Of a stretch of 30,388 nt of DNA, positions 1,165 through 6,565 are shown piece by piece. Position 1 is the first letter of the stretch. Each line of letters starts with the position of its first letter. Below the pieces are notes generated by a model. The model worked only from the letters and a program-made list of their open reading frames with translations, searched no databases and was not told where the DNA came from. The stretch is from IMG/VR virus record IMGVR_UViG_3300005470_000016, positions 1-30,388 of that record, one strand, 5' to 3'. The translations under genes were made by a program, and so were the position numbers. This stretch comes from a virus.

Positions 1165-1205
1165 TCTTTACGCTTATTGTTGTGTATAGTTGGTAGTTAT
1201 GTGGC
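1165..1205 (-). repeat. Truncated attC-like element (E6)
   Basis: Minus-strand GCCACATAAC (1205-1196) is the exact reverse complement of GTTATGTGGC, which on the minus strand begins the DNA upstream of the ORF at 1207-1437 (1456-1447). In integron cassettes the start of a cassette pairs with the R'' box of its own attC, and this 10-bp match is what that model predicts. The rest of the element is a short remnant (TACCA, then ACTATACACAAC) without the long stem seen in the fuller copies. It may be a deletion derivative. Confidence 0.4.
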
Positions 1206-1206
1206 A

Positions 1207-1437
1207 TTAGGCACACCATCTAGCAAAGTCTAAATCCTTTGTGCTTAATACTACTTTGCCAACTTCAATCATTTCTTTTCTGGTATATAAACCCGTTGCA
1301 CAAGATTCAATAAACCAAGCTCTTAAATCATCTTCTTCAGAGTGTGCAGCTTCATCGTCATCTTTCATTTTATCTATTTGTGCAACTAATTCTATTGCAT
1401 CTTCTAATGTTAGTTTTTTGTTTTTTAAGTCTTCCAT
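1207..1437 (-). CDS. Hypothetical protein, 76 aa, cassette-like ORF
   Basis: The ATG at 1437 is preferred over a start 21 bases upstream, because GGCGTTAAAATTATG matches the A-rich start context of neighbouring genes. The protein begins MEDLKNKKLTLEDAIELVAQ, is acidic and helical, and ends with DLDFARWCA. I do not recognise a family. The ORF is flanked by attC-like inverted repeats at 1446-1571 and 1165-1205, and its stop codon lies next to the second, the layout of a one-gene integron cassette. Confidence 0.65.
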   Translation of the reverse strand: MEDLKNKKLTLEDAIELVAQIDKMKDDDEAAHSEEDDLRAWFIESCATGLYTRKEMIEVGKVVLSTKDLDFARWCA

Positions 1438-1445
1438 AATTTTAA

Positions 1446-1571
1446 CGCCACATAACAAAGTATATAAAACATTGCTTTAGAGGTCTTTTTTTAAGGTTGT
1501 TAATAATTCAATTTTTTATGTTTATATGTTAAGTTTCGGTTCACAACGTTTCATATACAAACCGTTATTTG
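1446..1571 (-). repeat. attC-like inverted-repeat element (E5)
   Basis: On the minus strand: box CAAATAAC (1571-1564), spacer GGTTT, arm GTATATGAAACGTTG (1558-1544), a 69-nt interior, arm CAATGTTTTATATAC (1474-1460), spacer TTT, box GTTATGTG. The 15-nt arms pair completely with two G-T pairs. The outer TAAC and GTTA pair, and between them lie unequal unpaired spacers of 5 and 3 nt. This order (R'', spacer, L'', variable loop, L', spacer, R') and the total length match integron attC sites. The GTTATGT box differs from GTTRRRY at one position. Confidence 0.55.
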
Positions 1572-1581
1572 CAATGCTACG

Positions 1582-1848
1582 TTATTGCTTTCTAATAACA
1601 TTAAAGCGTCCTTTTGCCTCTACACATTTATCAGTGGTAAACATCTTAAGCAAGGCTTCTTTTGCCTCATCGCCTTTAAAGTGTATTTCTAAAGGCATAC
1701 TAAAAATATGAAAGCAACTTTCTTTTTCAGATAAATCAGTCTTATTGCTATGGTATTTATTCCATATTTTTTTATCTTCTTCTGTAAGTTTATAACCTGT
1801 TTCTTCAAAAACCTTGTTAAATGTTACGTTTCCTAAATATATATTCAT
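1582..1848 (-). CDS. Hypothetical protein, 88 aa, cassette-like ORF
   Basis: The ATG at 1848 is chosen because its leader (CCAAAACATT) fits the A-rich pattern; an in-frame ATG ten codons earlier has a poor context. The protein begins MNIYLGNVTFNKVFEETGYK and carries a polar helix and a segment CFHIFSMPLEIHF near the middle; soluble, no clear motif. It sits between attC-like elements E4 and E5, so it is a further one-gene cassette candidate. The box at the start of this unit (TTATATG) and the R'' box of E5 (CAAATAAC) are complementary with one mismatch. Confidence 0.6.
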   Translation of the reverse strand: MNIYLGNVTFNKVFEETGYKLTEEDKKIWNKYHSNKTDLSEKESCFHIFSMPLEIHFKGDEAKEALLKMFTTDKCVEAKGRFNVIRKQ

Positions 1849-1875
1849 AATGTTTTGGCTTAATAATCCGCACAT

Positions 1876-1984
1876 CATATAACACCGTATAAAATTAAGT
1901 GCTAGTAAGTGCTTTTTAAAAGGTTAATATTTGTTTTTAAGTGCTTATTTATACGCACCTAATCTTATACAATTCCGTTATAAG
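1876..1984 (-). repeat. attC-like inverted-repeat element (E4)
   Basis: Minus strand: CTTATAAC (1984-1977), spacer GGAATT, arm GTATAAGATTAGGTGC (1970-1955), a 52-nt interior, arm GCACTTAATTTTATAC (1902-1887), spacer GGT, GTTATATG (1883-1876). The 16-nt arms pair at every position with two G-T pairs. TAACGG followed by GTATA is shared with E1 and E5, although the stems differ elsewhere by compensating changes. The stop codon of the upstream ORF (TAA, 1980-1978) forms part of the TAAC box. Confidence 0.55.
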
Positions 1985-2205
1985 TCATTTAACTGTTCGG
2001 CTAATTCCATAACTCCAAAGCACCACTTCATTTGGTCTTTATTCATTTGCAAAACATTGTCATTTAGCGGTTGTCCTATATTGTAAAACTTGCCTACTAT
2101 TTGGCTTTTCAACTCTTTATTTTCCTTTAGCATTTCTTTGTACTCCTCAATTTGTAGTTGCTGCTTTGTAATCAATTCATCTTTTGTCATTTCTATAAGT
2201 TCCAT
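1978..2205 (-). CDS. Coiled-coil hypothetical protein, 75 aa, cassette-like ORF
   Basis: The ATG at 2205 has a textbook leader for this genome (AAAAATAAAGAATT). Residues about 5-36 (ELITKQQLQIEEYKEMLKEN onward) form a likely coiled coil, followed by a segment with Gly and Pro and a helical C-terminus. No enzymatic motif is visible and I do not recognise it. It is bounded by attC-like elements E3 upstream and E4 downstream, and its stop codon lies inside E4. Confidence 0.65.
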   Translation of the reverse strand: MELIEMTKDELITKQQLQIEEYKEMLKENKELKSQIVGKFYNIGQPLNDNVLQMNKDQMKWCFGVMELAEQLNDL

Positions 2206-2223
2206 AATTCTTTATTTTTAAAT

Positions 2224-2322
2224 TGTTAATAACGGTTTGGCACATGAGTAATAAGTGATGTTAAATCCTACAAAATCGTAAAAGTGTAAGGTGCTTATCA
2301 ATCACATACCAACCGTTACATT
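2224..2322 (-). repeat. attC-like inverted-repeat element (E3)
   Basis: Minus strand: TAACGGTT (2318-2311) pairs perfectly with AACCGTTA (2237-2230). Inside it, GTATGTGATTGATAAG (2309-2294) pairs with CTTATTACTCATGTGC (2255-2240) at 15 of 16 positions, counting G-T pairs. The 38-nt interior is AT-rich. Here the spacers next to the outer boxes are themselves complementary, unlike E4 and E5, so the unpaired central spacers typical of attC are small or absent. The TAACGG...GTAT start is shared with E1, E4 and E5. Confidence 0.5.
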
Positions 2323-2332
2323 TAATACCACC

Positions 2333-2362
2333 AAAACCCCGAAACGAATTAACGAGTCGGGG
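2333..2362 (-). terminator. Intrinsic terminator after the SSB gene
   Basis: Minus-strand CCCCGA (2362-2357) pairs with TCGGGG (2342-2337), a GC-rich 6-bp stem followed directly by TTTT (2336-2333). It lies 19 nt after the stop codon of the SSB-like gene and before element E3, so the SSB transcript probably ends here. The small ORFs beyond would then need readthrough or their own promoter. Confidence 0.65.
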
Positions 2363-2380
2363 CGTATGGCTTAGTTTAGG

Positions 2381-2722
2381 TTAAAAGGGCAAATCCGAGG
2401 ATTCATCTTCCTGTGCTAATGGTTCTCCTGTACTTACTTTGTCGCATCTCCAGTGGCTTAGATTGTTGTAGATTCTACCGTTGTACTCTTTACCACGAAT
2501 GTTAAACTCTACTTCCACTTTGTCGCCTACTTTGTTAAACTCAATAAACTTATCTACGAACTCAGAAAACTCTGCACTCTTGTAGATGTTAAAGTTAAAC
2601 GGAGTTACATATCCGTTCTCGCTTGTTTCGTTAACGGTGTAGTCTAATACTACTGCTCCGTTGTCTAACGTTTTCTTTTCTCCGATTGTGGCGATAACGC
2701 CTGTCATTTTAAATGTTCCCAT
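2381..2722 (-). CDS. Single-stranded DNA-binding protein, DUF3127-like OB fold
   Basis: This 113-aa protein has the layout of the Bacteroidota DUF3127 OB-fold family: strand-rich N-terminus (MGTFKMTGVIATIGEKKTLD), central segment EFNKVGDKVEVEFNIRGKEY and a following NLSHWR. It ends with an acidic tail and DLPF. Tails of the form DDDLPF are the protein-interaction tip of bacterial SSB and recruit replication and repair partners, so this small protein probably coats phage ssDNA and recruits host or phage replication proteins. It fits with ERF and the 5' exonuclease upstream in the same direction. Start at 2722 follows the HNH gene by only 4 nt, so both may share a transcript. Confidence 0.8.
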   Translation of the reverse strand: MGTFKMTGVIATIGEKKTLDNGAVVLDYTVNETSENGYVTPFNFNIYKSAEFSEFVDKFIEFNKVGDKVEVEFNIRGKEYNGRIYNNLSHWRCDKVSTGEPLAQEDESSDLPF

Positions 2723-2726
2723 AAAT

Positions 2727-3218
2727 TTACTTATTATTTGTTTTACTTAATTCTGCTTGATAAACCTCGTGCGCTACTAATTCAGAGTCAAAAATACCTA
2801 AATGTTTTTGCTTCCCATCTATAACAATTCTAGACCTCCATTTTCCCTTGTATAAACTAACACCGATATATTTAGAAGAACCACCATTACGGTCTTTGGT
2901 AGAGTTTTTTCTATGTGTAACTATCTGTAAATTAGACAGGTCATTGTTTAAAGGATTATTGTCGATATGGTCAACTACTAACTTATGTCCACATGGTGTG
3001 TGATTTAAAAAAGTCATTGCAAGTAGCAAATGAACACTTACCGTTCTAGGTTTGCCTCCTCTCTTAGTTAGTTTAACTACATAGTACCCTGTACTATCTA
3101 TACAGTTTTTCAAAATAACACCGCTAACCTTGTATCGTTTAAAACTCTTTACATTTCCTAAGTTACTAATTTGATAGTCTCCATCAAAACCTTTTAAATC
3201 CTTAAAAATCTCTTGCAT
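2727..3218 (-). CDS. NUMOD4-HNH-AP2 homing-type endonuclease 1
   Basis: Domain order in 163 aa: NUMOD4-type start (about 1-40, GFDGDYQISNLGNVKSFKRY), an HNH nuclease core (about 70-105: HKLVVDHIDNNPLNNDLSNL with the DH dyad and asparagine-rich loop, then NSTKDR) and a C-terminal AP2-type DNA-binding segment (about 112-155: SKYIGVSLYKGKWRSRIVID). Such free-standing enzymes cut a DNA site and spread by homing. It has a paralog of exactly the same length at 5965-6456. Both are preceded by a TAnnTTTG promoter and a pseudoknot-like leader. The start at 3218 has an A-rich leader (AAAATTGAAATAAT). Confidence 0.85.
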   Translation of the reverse strand: MQEIFKDLKGFDGDYQISNLGNVKSFKRYKVSGVILKNCIDSTGYYVVKLTKRGGKPRTVSVHLLLAMTFLNHTPCGHKLVVDHIDNNPLNNDLSNLQIVTHRKNSTKDRNGGSSKYIGVSLYKGKWRSRIVIDGKQKHLGIFDSELVAHEVYQAELSKTNNK

Positions 3219-3234
3219 ATTATTTCAATTTTAA

Positions 3235-3303
3235 TCTCAAGTGTTAAAGAATCGTAGCAGGACTTGAGAACCTTTTGCAGAAGTTAATTAGACTTCGCTA
3301 CGA
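3235..3303 (-). ncRNA. Pseudoknot-like leader RNA Pk1 before endonuclease 1
   Basis: On the minus strand two interleaved helices are possible. P1 pairs TCGTAGC (3303-3297) with GCTACGA (3258-3252). P2 pairs TCTCAAGT (3269-3262) with ACTTGAGA (3242-3235). The order P1-5', P2-5', P1-3', P2-3' is that of an H-type pseudoknot. A small hairpin GAAGT/ACTTC lies in the first loop. P2 ends 16 nt before the endonuclease start codon and is followed by TTAAAATT rather than a strong U-tract. Three other loci have the same plan with different bases. Confidence 0.5.
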
Positions 3304-3306
3304 ATA

Positions 3307-3328
3307 CAAAGATAGTAAAAATATTCAA
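3307..3328 (-). promoter_or_regulatory. Promoter of leader Pk1 (short-spacer type)
   Basis: Minus-strand TATCTTTG (3314-3307) matches the -7 box TAnnTTTG. No TTG lies at the usual 19 nt, but ATTG lies 11 nt upstream (TTG at 3328-3326). It would start a transcript just before the pseudoknot helix P1 and lead into the HNH gene. Confidence 0.5.
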
Positions 3329-3362
3329 TTATAAAAGAAATATAATCATTTTATTTAACTAT

Positions 3363-3415
3363 ATATAACAATCGCTAAGAAATATTAAAAACAGTTTCTT
3401 AGCTTGGTGTTAGAT
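3363..3415 (-). repeat. Short attC-like element (E2)
   Basis: Minus strand: ATCTAAC (3415-3409), a perfect RYYYAAC box whose reverse complement GTTAGAT is a perfect GTTRRRY, then ACCAA, arm GCTAAGAAA (3403-3395), a 12-nt loop, arm TTTCTTAGC (3382-3374), GATT, then the GTTA box (3369-3366). The 9-bp arms pair exactly. It starts 5 nt after the stop codon of the ORF at 3420-3626. It is shorter than E3-E5 but has the same plan. The flanking TAAC and GTTA separate it from an ordinary terminator, and no U-tract follows. Confidence 0.5.
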
Positions 3416-3419
3416 GCAA

Positions 3420-3626
3420 TTATAAAAGAACATCAATTCTACTTGCTTCATTTTTTGATACTTTACCATTTCCTTCACAATAAGGACATTTTACCAAATC
3501 ATATAAAGCACGTTCGTATTCATAACTTTTAACCATCCCGTTAAAACAAAGATTAGGGCAAATAACTGCATCTAACATTGTATATACGTCAGTTGCGGTT
3601 TGGTGATTATTCGATACTTTTTCCAT
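3420..3626 (-). CDS. Small zinc-finger-like hypothetical protein, 68 aa
   Basis: The ATG at 3626 (leader AATAAAACTTAATAGA) is chosen over an upstream TTG in the same frame, which would put the start inside element E1. The protein has a cysteine pattern CPNLC near residue 23 and CPYCEGNGK near residue 49, so it may bind one zinc ion in a DnaJ-like CxxCxGxG knuckle. It ends DVLL. Function unknown. It lies between attC-like elements E1 and E2. Confidence 0.6.
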   Translation of the reverse strand: MEKVSNNHQTATDVYTMLDAVICPNLCFNGMVKSYEYERALYDLVKCPYCEGNGKVSKNEASRIDVLL

Positions 3627-3649
3627 TCTATTAAGTTTTATTTTTAATT

Positions 3650-3702
3650 GATACGTCCGTGCTTCTAATCGCAACCGAACGCATATACTTTGCCGTTATA
3701 TC
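3650..3702 (-). repeat. Half attC-like element (E1)
   Basis: Minus strand: ATATAACGG (3701-3693), CAAA, GTATATGCGTTCG, then a hairpin back to CGGACGTAT (9 pairs including G-T). The TAACGG-spacer-GTATATG start is nearly the same as in E5 (1567-1551). There is no closing GTTA box; the 3' half runs into the leader of the ORF at 3420-3626. I read this as a truncated member of the family. Confidence 0.4.
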
Positions 3703-3736: not shown

Positions 3737-4582
3737 CTACTTTATTAAGTTTATTAAGTGATAATTAACTGTTAACTTCTCTTTCCAATCTCCACCTTCT
3801 TCAATATAGGCTTCAACAACCTTTCTAAACTTTCCGTACTCGCTACGGTCTTTTAACAGTTTCTTTGCTTTTACTTTTCCAATCCCTTTAACGCCTTTAA
3901 TGTTATCTACAGTGTCACCTTCTAACAGTAACCGCCCTAGTAGTTCTGTTCCTTCGCTTGGACTTGTAAACGTAAAGCCTTTATACTCTTTGATTGGATT
4001 ATTCCATTCATCAACCTCTCCTGTTTTCTTTTTGTAGTAATCAAAATGACACCCTGTTATTTGTTTAAGGTCTTTGTCTATTGATACTACTATTTCATTT
4101 CCTCTACCTCTGTTTTTTATGTAAAGTGGGATTAAGTCGTCTGCTTCTAGCTCTTCGCTATACTCACAAAAATCACTAAAACTAAACTCTATATTCTCGA
4201 TAACTTGACGCTTTAAACTATGTACTAAATCGCTTAGTTCGTTTCGCTCCCTGTTACCTTTATAGTCTTTGCTAAACTCTAATCTAAAGTTATTAGTACA
4301 AGTAGTAAAAAACGTCCTTATACCGTTTACTGGATAACCTTGCTCTTCAATATGTAAAGCAATCGCTCTAACCTGTGAATGAAAATCTTCAATCATATCT
4401 GAATAAATCAATTCCTTACCTAGCCAAAAGTGAGCAACATTGTAAACGATTGAATCTGCATCAATCAGTAAATCAAAACTATCATGACTTAAAAAGCTTT
4501 CGAGACAGTCACGTTTAACCGCCTCGTTTTTGCTTAATTTAATAAAGTTAGATAAAAATTCTAGTTCTTGTCTTGGTGTCAT
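3737..4582 (-). CDS. 5'-3' exonuclease, PIN/FLAP type (T4 RNase H-like)
   Basis: The 281-aa protein has the acidic residues and helical motifs of structure-specific 5' nucleases: LLIDADSIVYN near 38-48, YKGNR near 107, ELEADDLI near 143, VVSIDKDLKQI near 166 and a helix-hairpin-helix segment GVKGIGKVKAKKLL near 233. These motifs bind two metal ions and DNA. The enzyme would remove RNA primers or flaps, or resect ends to make the ssDNA used by the ERF annealing protein, whose stop codon overlaps this ATG (TAATG). Length fits the family. Confidence 0.88.
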   Translation of the reverse strand: MTPRQELEFLSNFIKLSKNEAVKRDCLESFLSHDSFDLLIDADSIVYNVAHFWLGKELIYSDMIEDFHSQVRAIALHIEEQGYPVNGIRTFFTTCTNNFRLEFSKDYKGNRERNELSDLVHSLKRQVIENIEFSFSDFCEYSEELEADDLIPLYIKNRGRGNEIVVSIDKDLKQITGCHFDYYKKKTGEVDEWNNPIKEYKGFTFTSPSEGTELLGRLLLEGDTVDNIKGVKGIGKVKAKKLLKDRSEYGKFRKVVEAYIEEGGDWKEKLTVNYHLINLIK

Positions 4583-5251: not shown

Positions 5252-5272
5252 ATAACAATAAATATAAGTAAT

Positions 5273-5349
5273 ATGGCATTTCTGATTCGAACAGACTCTC
5301 AGTGGTTCTCTCAAGTTGGGTCGCTCCTTACTGTGGTTTCTCATGCCAT
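5273..5349 (-). tRNA. tRNA-like element with non-canonical centre
   Basis: The 77-nt minus-strand segment begins ATGGCAT and ends ATGCCAT, a perfect 7-bp acceptor-like stem. Before the 3' strand lies GTCTG-TTCGAAT-CAGAA: a TTCGAAT loop of canonical T-loop form closed by 4 bp, placed exactly where a T arm belongs. The D and anticodon arms cannot be drawn in standard form; I found no 5-bp stem with a 7-nt loop. It may be a degenerate tRNA, a tRNA mimic or a processing signal. No amino acid is assigned. It lies between the DUF3310 gene and the erf promoter. Confidence 0.3.
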
Positions 5350-5373
5350 CCATACTACTCATATTCTTTGCCG

Positions 5374-5760
5374 TCATTTACAACCCTCTAACCGTTTAAC
5401 TTCTCTATTTGCATAGTCTGCTATCTTCTTAAAGTCACTTATATCTTCGCCTTTGTCACGCAATAAGTACTTCAAAATGTTCCCTTCGCTAAAGTTTAGA
5501 TTCCAATGGTTAATCAAGTCTAAAACGTCCATTCCGTGAACCTCTCTTGATGCGTATCTTTCAGGGCGTTCTTCGATTAGTTCTAACTGGCTAATGTTAA
5601 TAAAATACCTTCCATCCCCAATCCAGTTCTCATTATGAAACCTTAGATAATTAGTACCATCATCAAAGCACATTACACACTCGTCACCAGTATTAATACC
5701 ATAACGTTCCAAATTCTTGCTATCAATAACCCTATACTTTTGACCCTCTCTATTTTTCAT
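5374..5760 (-). CDS. DUF3310-domain protein
   Basis: The C-terminal half (residues about 72-125) fits DUF3310, seen in many phage nucleotide-metabolism or replication regions: VLDLINHWNLNFSEGNILKY, then LLRDKGEDISDFKKIADYAN. The N-terminal half is strand-rich (YRVIDSKNLERYGINTGDEC), resembling a small beta-barrel add-on. The biochemical role of DUF3310 is not established. The ATG at 5760 overlaps the end of the preceding 53-aa gene by 11 nt, so both are probably translated from the same mRNA. Confidence 0.75.
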   Translation of the reverse strand: MKNREGQKYRVIDSKNLERYGINTGDECVMCFDDGTNYLRFHNENWIGDGRYFINISQLELIEERPERYASREVHGMDVLDLINHWNLNFSEGNILKYLLRDKGEDISDFKKIADYANREVKRLEGCK

Positions 5761-5964: not shown

Positions 5965-6456
5965 TTAACTATTTATTTTCTTTAATTCTTTCTGATACGC
6001 TTCAGATGCTTCCAATTCACAAGTAAAGCGACCTAAAAACTTATTTCTTCCTTTTATATTTATCTCTGCTCTCCACTTACAATCTTGTTTACTCCAACTT
6101 ACACCAACATACCTAGACGTTCCACCTTTACGGTCTTTAGATGTGTTATGCCTACTTGTAGTTATTTGTAGGTTGCTTACACTGTTATTTAACTTATTAT
6201 TATCTATATGGTCGATAATTGTTTCGTAGCCGTTTGGATGGTGACCTAAAAACATTATAGCTACCAACTTATGAATTCTTTTAATTTTTCCTTTTCCGTT
6301 ACTAGACAGGATTACATAATAATAACCATTAGGCGCAATATTATTTTTAAGTATCTTTTCAGTTAACACTCCTTTTCTTTTTAAACTCTTAACTCTACCC
6401 AAACTACTTACCTGATAACATTCCTCGTAACCTTTAATATCCCTCCAAACTTCCAT
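5965..6456 (-). CDS. NUMOD4-HNH-AP2 homing-type endonuclease 2
   Basis: This 163-aa protein has the same order as endonuclease 1: NUMOD4 start (MEVWRDIKGYEECYQVSSLG), HNH core (IDHIDNNKLNNSVSNLQITT then TSKDR) and AP2-type segment (SRYVGVSWSKQDCKWRAEIN). The ATG at 6456 is preferred because MEVWRDIKG is the canonical NUMOD4 beginning. An upstream in-frame ATG at 6498 would lie inside the leader pseudoknot and add a hydrophobic stretch not found in the paralog. It sits next to the NinG gene and is expressed from its own promoter at 6543. Confidence 0.85.
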   Translation of the reverse strand: MEVWRDIKGYEECYQVSSLGRVKSLKRKGVLTEKILKNNIAPNGYYYVILSSNGKGKIKRIHKLVAIMFLGHHPNGYETIIDHIDNNKLNNSVSNLQITTSRHNTSKDRKGGTSRYVGVSWSKQDCKWRAEINIKGRNKFLGRFTCELEASEAYQKELKKINS

Positions 6457-6460
6457 GTAT

Positions 6461-6534
6461 AAAAAAACCAACCAAATCCACGCTGGTCGTCGCTTCATTG
6501 ATTGGAATTGTAAAATTTCTTATTGTGCGACCAG
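6461..6534 (-). ncRNA. Pseudoknot-terminator leader RNA Pk2 before endonuclease 2
   Basis: P1 pairs CTGGTCG (6534-6528) with CGACCAG (6489-6483). P2 pairs CCAATCAA (6505-6498) with TTGGTTGG (6475-6468), one G-T pair. P2 is followed by TTTTTTT (6467-6461), so it is also an intrinsic terminator stem. The U-tract ends 4 nt before the endonuclease ATG. The helices interleave as in Pk1, Pk3 and Pk4. The endonuclease would be expressed only if transcription passes this terminator. Confidence 0.6.
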
Positions 6535-6542
6535 ACACAAGG

Positions 6543-6565
6543 CAAATATAAGCATTTTATTTCAA
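6543..6565 (-). promoter_or_regulatory. Promoter of leader Pk2 (short-spacer type)
   Basis: Minus-strand TATATTTG (6550-6543), with TTTG 12 nt upstream (TTG at 6565-6563) and the sequence GAAATAAAATGCT in between. The same GAAATAAAAT stretch precedes the promoter at 26612. The promoter overlaps the last codons of the NinG gene. Confidence 0.5.

Follow-up and report, generated by a model that had tools for sequence, protein, structure and literature searches.

The small genes at positions 1165–3702 of IMG/VR record IMGVR_UViG_3300005470_000016, a 30,388-nucleotide stretch of viral DNA that was analysed whole and is called the window below, are separated by inverted repeats resembling the attC recombination sites of integrons. 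Is this locus a gene-cassette array and, if so, which gene travels with which site, and by what means? A preliminary description had proposed a candidate array of attC-like sites. That proposal is borne out by covariation in the stems, by pairing of cassette starts with cassette ends, by the sharing of whole units between phages and by similar sites adjoining recombinase genes in Bacteroidia. We consider it probable, from comparison of the sequences, that the locus belongs to a class of phage cassette arrays in which the unit is an attC together with the gene that follows it, an integron-type tyrosine recombinase moving such units from phage to phage. The window virus probably infects marine Flavobacteria.

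Throughout, the strand reading TAACG...GTATATG...TATATAC..GTT is termed the M strand. In the window this is the minus strand; all detected elements lie on it, as do the window genes, and elements E1 to E6 are numbered in minus-strand order.

The unit exchanged between phages

We compared 140 phage loci, all against all, and recorded where the blocks of shared sequence end. Upstream edges fell within 15 nt of a TAAC box in 396 cases (159 of them exactly at its T), compared with 10 near a GTT box. Because many shared blocks (225) consist of an attC alone, the count that discriminates is that of blocks containing both an attC and a gene: 19 comprised an attC and the downstream gene and began at TAAC, whereas none comprised an upstream gene and an attC and ended at GTT. 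A complete unit of 409 bp, 92% identical, is common to L140 and L221, which are otherwise different phages; both of its edges lie exactly at TAAC boxes and its flanks are unrelated, so that this pair displays the exchange of a single cassette with box-precise edges that characterizes an array. Given the 19 to 0 count and the L140/L221 unit, we take the mobile unit in phages to be an attC and the gene after it. The preliminary assignment of each gene to the element after it is not supported by the same count. In the usual layout, which is typical of integrons rather than strictly defining, the attC lies 3′ of the gene with which it travels; the phage attC lies 5′ of its gene.

In 199 phage cassettes, the seven variable bases that follow GTT were compared with the reverse complement of the seven that precede the next AAC; on average 5.72 of 7 positions agree, while random pairing gives 2.74, with 3.06 as the upper limit over all permutations. 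The outer boxes are thus complementary within a cassette and different between cassettes, as in integron cassettes. The stems also covary: compensatory changes are seen at 16 of 18 predicted pairs among 58 dissimilar elements. In 57 of the 58 the M strand retains one particular G.T pair, which is why we regard M as the folded strand. Judged from sequence, stem covariation, box pairing and site architecture are typical marks of attC sites in integrons.

In the mechanism that we propose, the TAAC...GTTA elements would act as attC recombination sites in the form of folded single strands of the coding strand. Units would join at the TAAC box and pass from phage to phage; comparison of the loci shows the exchange itself, and the enzyme is most likely the XerA/IntI-like recombinase found beside such sites in Bacteroidia and in some phage arrays.

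The layout also bears on translation. Of 292 phage attCs with a length of 70 nt or more, 128 contain the start of the gene's longest ATG reading, and these starts cluster 49–63 nt before the GTT end. Leaders encoded in this way are mostly 15–20 residues long and often hydrophilic, and end in LYTLL or PVVS-like sequences in two frames before continuing into unrelated proteins; in L125, L159 and L221 they run into apparent lipoprotein signal peptides. An ATG occupies that place in 128 of 276 phage sites as against 9 of 31 bacterial sites on the same strand, a modest difference. Since phage genes are inverted relative to attC when compared with bacterial integrons, the attC would form the 5′ leader of its gene. 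The observed ATG positions suggest that translation starts inside the attC, many units taking from it their start codon and first 17–20 residues, and each such unit would bring its own translation start. Pfam gave no match for most of 120 cassette proteins, so that the cargo is largely unclassified; among the recognised functions, that of DNA methyltransferase is the most frequent.

Elements and genes of the window

A scan of the whole window, in which a pairing stem was constrained to lie between TAAC and GTTA boxes, ranked E4, E3, E1, E5 and E2 as its top five sites (Table 1). The next-ranked site on that strand scored 22, and 12 dinucleotide shuffles of the window gave maximum scores of 16–24, none reaching 25. 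We also built a covariance model, R1 (125 positions), from 58 attCs of other phages, excluding the window and its nearest match. R1 recovered four window elements, namely E1, E5, E4 and a seventh at 5253–5376; E2 and E3, both shorter than the model, gave no R1 match. As expected of attC, the scan, the covariation and R1 all describe YAAC and GTT boxes around an imperfect palindrome predicted to fold as a single strand. The preliminary description had counted six elements in one orientation, of which E1 and E6 were thought truncated. Five are genuine by the scan and R1 (E1–E5), all on one strand, and E6 is indeed a truncated remnant; E1 is complete, as its 3′ arm sits within the annotated N-terminus of the open reading frame (ORF) at 3420–3674. 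Relatives of two elements occur elsewhere: E1 is 95% identical over 127 bp to positions 6439–6565 of phage L022, with unrelated flanks on either side, and an element related to E2 (78%) lies at 6277–6338 in L005, in the same position preceding ssb.

Table 1. Elements and genes of the window (scores from the stem scan; bits and E-values of elements from covariance model R1; aa, amino acids)
Feature	Position	Strand	Details
E1	3573–3698	−	Complete attC; scan score 34; R1 93.9 bits, E 9.5e-16
E2	3366–3412	−	Short-loop element, exact 9-bp arms, box ATCTAAC; scan score 23
E3	2230–2318	−	attC element, 89 nt; scan score 34
E4	1880–1980	−	attC element; scan score 38; R1 E 1.6e-9
E5	1453–1567	−	attC element; scan score 32; R1 E 6.9e-11
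E6	1165–1206	−	Element remnant; TAAC box at 1199, without 3′ arm
Seventh attC-like element	5253–5376	−	Box 1 mutated to TGAC; R1 37.4 bits, E 4e-5; upstream of erf/exonuclease genes
Cassette gene, 68 aa	3420–3626	−	Start codon at 3626 inside E1; leader MEKVSNNHQTATDVYTML encoded by E1
NUMOD4/HNH homing endonuclease gene	2727–3218	−	PF07463 9e-16, PF13392 2e-8; inserted between E2 and ssb
ssb, single-strand DNA binding protein (DUF3127-like), phage core gene	2381–2722	−	phrog_4932 4e-12
Cassette gene, 75 aa	1978–2205	−	Function unassigned (ORF and PHROGs search)
Cassette gene, 88 aa	1582–1848	−	DNA 86% identical to that of an L003 phage gene
Cassette gene, 76 aa	1207–1437	−	phrog_10733

Start/end complementarity is perfect in two of the six window units. 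In unit 1456–1197 the start GTTATGTGGC (1456–1447) pairs at 10 of 10 positions with the end GCCACATAAC (1205–1196), an exact match that had already been pointed out in the preliminary description, and in unit 3576–3409 the start GTTAGATGCA and the end TGCATCTAAC are likewise complementary at 10 of 10. The start box of the 5376–5253 element (5256–5247, GTTATTTGCA) and the box that precedes E5 (1573–1564, TGCAAATAAC) are exact reverse complements of each other. These two boxes are 3.7 kb apart and bound different units; their match may be left over from an earlier, smaller cassette.

Among the phages compared, gene 1207–1437 is found, 88% identical, in the otherwise unrelated L006 (5940–6245), where the homology extends 3 nt beyond the next TAAC box and no further. 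The same ORF thus occurs beside other neighbours in another phage, as the preliminary description had suggested looking for, and box-precise exchange is seen in part for the window's own cassettes. L006 was initially read as a clean gain of gene 1582–1848 plus one element at a GTT box; this reading was dropped because the block edges over the 140 phage loci place the junction at TAAC, not GTT. In L005, a relative, similar elements lie between the genes of the exonuclease–ssb interval, which are several different small genes and one resembling a methyltransferase gene. A search with the exonuclease for related phages found, besides the window's virus itself, a single distant relative, and found none among cultured phages.

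The array is interleaved with replication genes, the phage carrying Erf, exonuclease and ssb genes. Gene 3420–3626 had no PHROGs or Pfam match. A second NUMOD4/HNH gene lies at 5965–6498, with ∼66% DNA identity to that at 2727–3218. In L004, a second contig of the window's virus (99.98% identical), a one-base difference at 3963–4151 disrupts gene 1582–1878. The sole match in an Rfam scan of the window was a sub-threshold abiF RNA at 389–425 on the minus strand (35.6 bits; gathering threshold 37), upstream of a partial ORF (3–260) that runs off the contig.

Polarity, recombinase and competing explanations

Two pattern scans of phage contigs found the element in 20 stretches (a few of them chance matches) and then in at least 119, many as arrays. 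With the first pattern, the downstream gene was on the M strand at 18 of 18 phage sites, and the neighbours were on the other strand at 8 of 8 true bacterial sites; with the second, the downstream gene was on M at 104 of 114 phage sites versus 0 of 8 bacterial sites. In bacterial arrays adjacent to a recombinase gene, 37 of 40 called downstream genes ran against M (at 33 sites both neighbours did so), their stop codons typically 7–33 nt from the site. Counted by site, the bacterial orientation holds at 37 of 39 sites in these arrays and at 8 of 8 with the second pattern, or 45 of 47 together. As a control, class 1 integron cassettes (dfrA1, aadA1) carry the M signature opposite to their genes, the usual bacterial polarity. 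Because class 1 and bacterial arrays alike run their genes against M, M corresponds to the classical bottom strand and it is the phage cassettes that are inverted. Some phage-labelled contigs (L155, L175 and L195) have bacterial polarity. The proteins encoded differ as well: 270 phage cassette proteins, forming 223 clusters, have just 10 weak matches in the sampled bacterial loci, which supports separate pools, and we infer that polarity separates phage from bacterial cassettes. The swapping of cassettes by a host integron, as the preliminary description supposed, conflicts with both the opposite polarity and the near absence of common genes in this sample.

A tyrosine recombinase with scores on both the XerA (NF040815) and IntI (TIGR02249) models is encoded by Flavobacteriia in which such sites occur. 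It falls under the IntI cut-off and misses ∼40 residues of the IntI-specific domain, and its C-terminus (..SPLD) is like that of IntI. Of 149 Bacteroidia, 84 have a member of this family; canonical IntI was rejected as the enzyme, being found in only 1 of 295. Around 19 of the recombinase genes, 38 sites lie downstream (118 kb), all of the same polarity, versus 2 upstream (152 kb), and start/end complementarity in the arrays beside them is 5.45/7 versus 2.57. Relatives occur in 6 of 50 array-bearing phage records, on the gene strand and mostly just 3′ of the array; aligned members of the family lack the IntI-specific domain, and in a tree the phage branches were too long for placement. Compact phage tyrosine recombinases (∼265–280 aa) lie at or near the 3′ end of arrays in L022 (3162–4004), L179 (6327–7133) and L234–L239. 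In loci L054, L055, L056 and L092–L107 (bacterial genomes G001, G003, G006 and G009–G153), a recombinase without the IntI-specific domain is followed by attC arrays, and the Bacteroidia gene is often less than 250 nt from a contig end, as if arrays broke assemblies. The XerA/IntI-like recombinase presumably acts on these sites, with the folded M strand as substrate. Integron software (IntegronFinder) recognises integrases by the IntI-specific domain, which is reported to be necessary for integrase activity (cited in PMC9668308). Such software reported Salinibacter as the only complete integron in Bacteroidetes proper. Since it relies on the domain that is missing here, and reported only Salinibacter, a class of Bacteroidia integrons has probably been overlooked so far.

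Several observations weigh against an exchanged array of attC-plus-gene units. The scan and R1 were made for this element family, so that their matches are no independent proof of attC as IntegronFinder defines it. Four of the six window units pair at just 3–5 of 7 variable positions, from which we conclude that the window array is partly decayed. The L003 counterpart of gene 1582–1848 has no attC around it at all, and in L006 gene 1207–1437 is preceded by an attC nearer E4 than E5, so attC and gene must sometimes travel separately. No recombinase is visible in the window, where the contig stops ∼1.2 kb past the last element. Some of these points would suit a different history, in which former site-specific cassettes now spread solely by phage homologous recombination (Erf, ssb) on shared attC sequence: the window phage has both genes, the 225 attC-only blocks are as expected from homologous exchange at attC, no recombinase of the searched family was found in 44 of 50 related phage records, and boxes in the window have decayed. 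This history is nevertheless unlikely, because most other arrays keep exact box edges and undamaged start/end complementarity, and because the stems covary as they would under selection for folding.

The attC family that the phages share with Bacteroidia arrays, and phage attC clusters with standard layout described in the literature, would also fit ordinary cassettes (gene, then attC) acquired from the host and moved by its integrase. Such an origin is quite improbable in view of the opposite polarity and the scarcity of protein matches; it is already contradicted by the block edges, which include no shared upstream gene plus attC, and gene 1207–1437 had no homologue in 295 Bacteroidia genomes, in a search run without a positive control. 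We give very little credence to a role of the elements in the phage operon as leader structures, or as hairpins with a regulatory or terminator function, instead of as recombination sites. They do precede genes and contain start codons, and E2 is terminator-like and retained before ssb in L005; unit-specific start/end complementarity and box-edged transfer of units would be meaningless for such hairpins, and the same architecture adjoins recombinase genes. The exchange of attC-plus-gene units by a recombinase can be taken further, to the proposal that Bacteroidia phages maintain an integron system of their own. Its reversed cassettes would form a private pool moved by a compact recombinase without the IntI-specific domain, with attC serving as recombination site, 5′ leader and coding start; it would run alongside a widespread, unrecognised class of Bacteroidia integrons, from which polarity would separate it. 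Towards this wider proposal we lean only slightly.

Relation to known systems

Clusters of attC without integrase (CALINs) are described in phages, including Polaribacter phage P12002L, by Qi et al. 2023 (PMC9892861), who showed one P12002L attC to be functional with IntI1. The likeness to the present arrays is close: attC-like sites among small phage genes, methyltransferase cargo and no integrase nearby. Three P12002L sites (L060 18037–18090, 18881–18936 and 19124–19245) are members of this family and, as in the window, have the genes on their own strand, the phage polarity. The difference is that a gene with its preceding site, reversed polarity, a start codon in attC and exchange of units between phages are not reported in the parts of that paper searched. 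A search of open-licence literature found no report of a reversed unit, an attC start codon, box-precise exchange between phages or a Bacteroidia integrase without the IntI domain. Phage attC clusters as such are already published, and their reversed-unit version appears to be new within that literature.

If this account is correct, cassette exchange, and not random mosaicism, explains the turnover of small-gene regions in many Bacteroidia phages, attC sites do double duty as translation starts, and a viral cassette pool is set apart from the bacterial one by polarity. It would also suggest that tools demanding the IntI-specific domain fail to detect a large class of integrons in Bacteroidia. 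The Bacteroidia recombinase resembles IntI and XerA in scoring on both models and in its ..SPLD end, and differs from IntI in the partial loss of the IntI-specific domain. With sedentary chromosomal and class 1 integrons, the phage arrays share the boxes, bubble, stem and loop of the site, the complementarity of the boxes, the folding strand and, in the frame of the site, the side of the array on which the recombinase lies; they differ in that the phage genes are inverted relative to attC.

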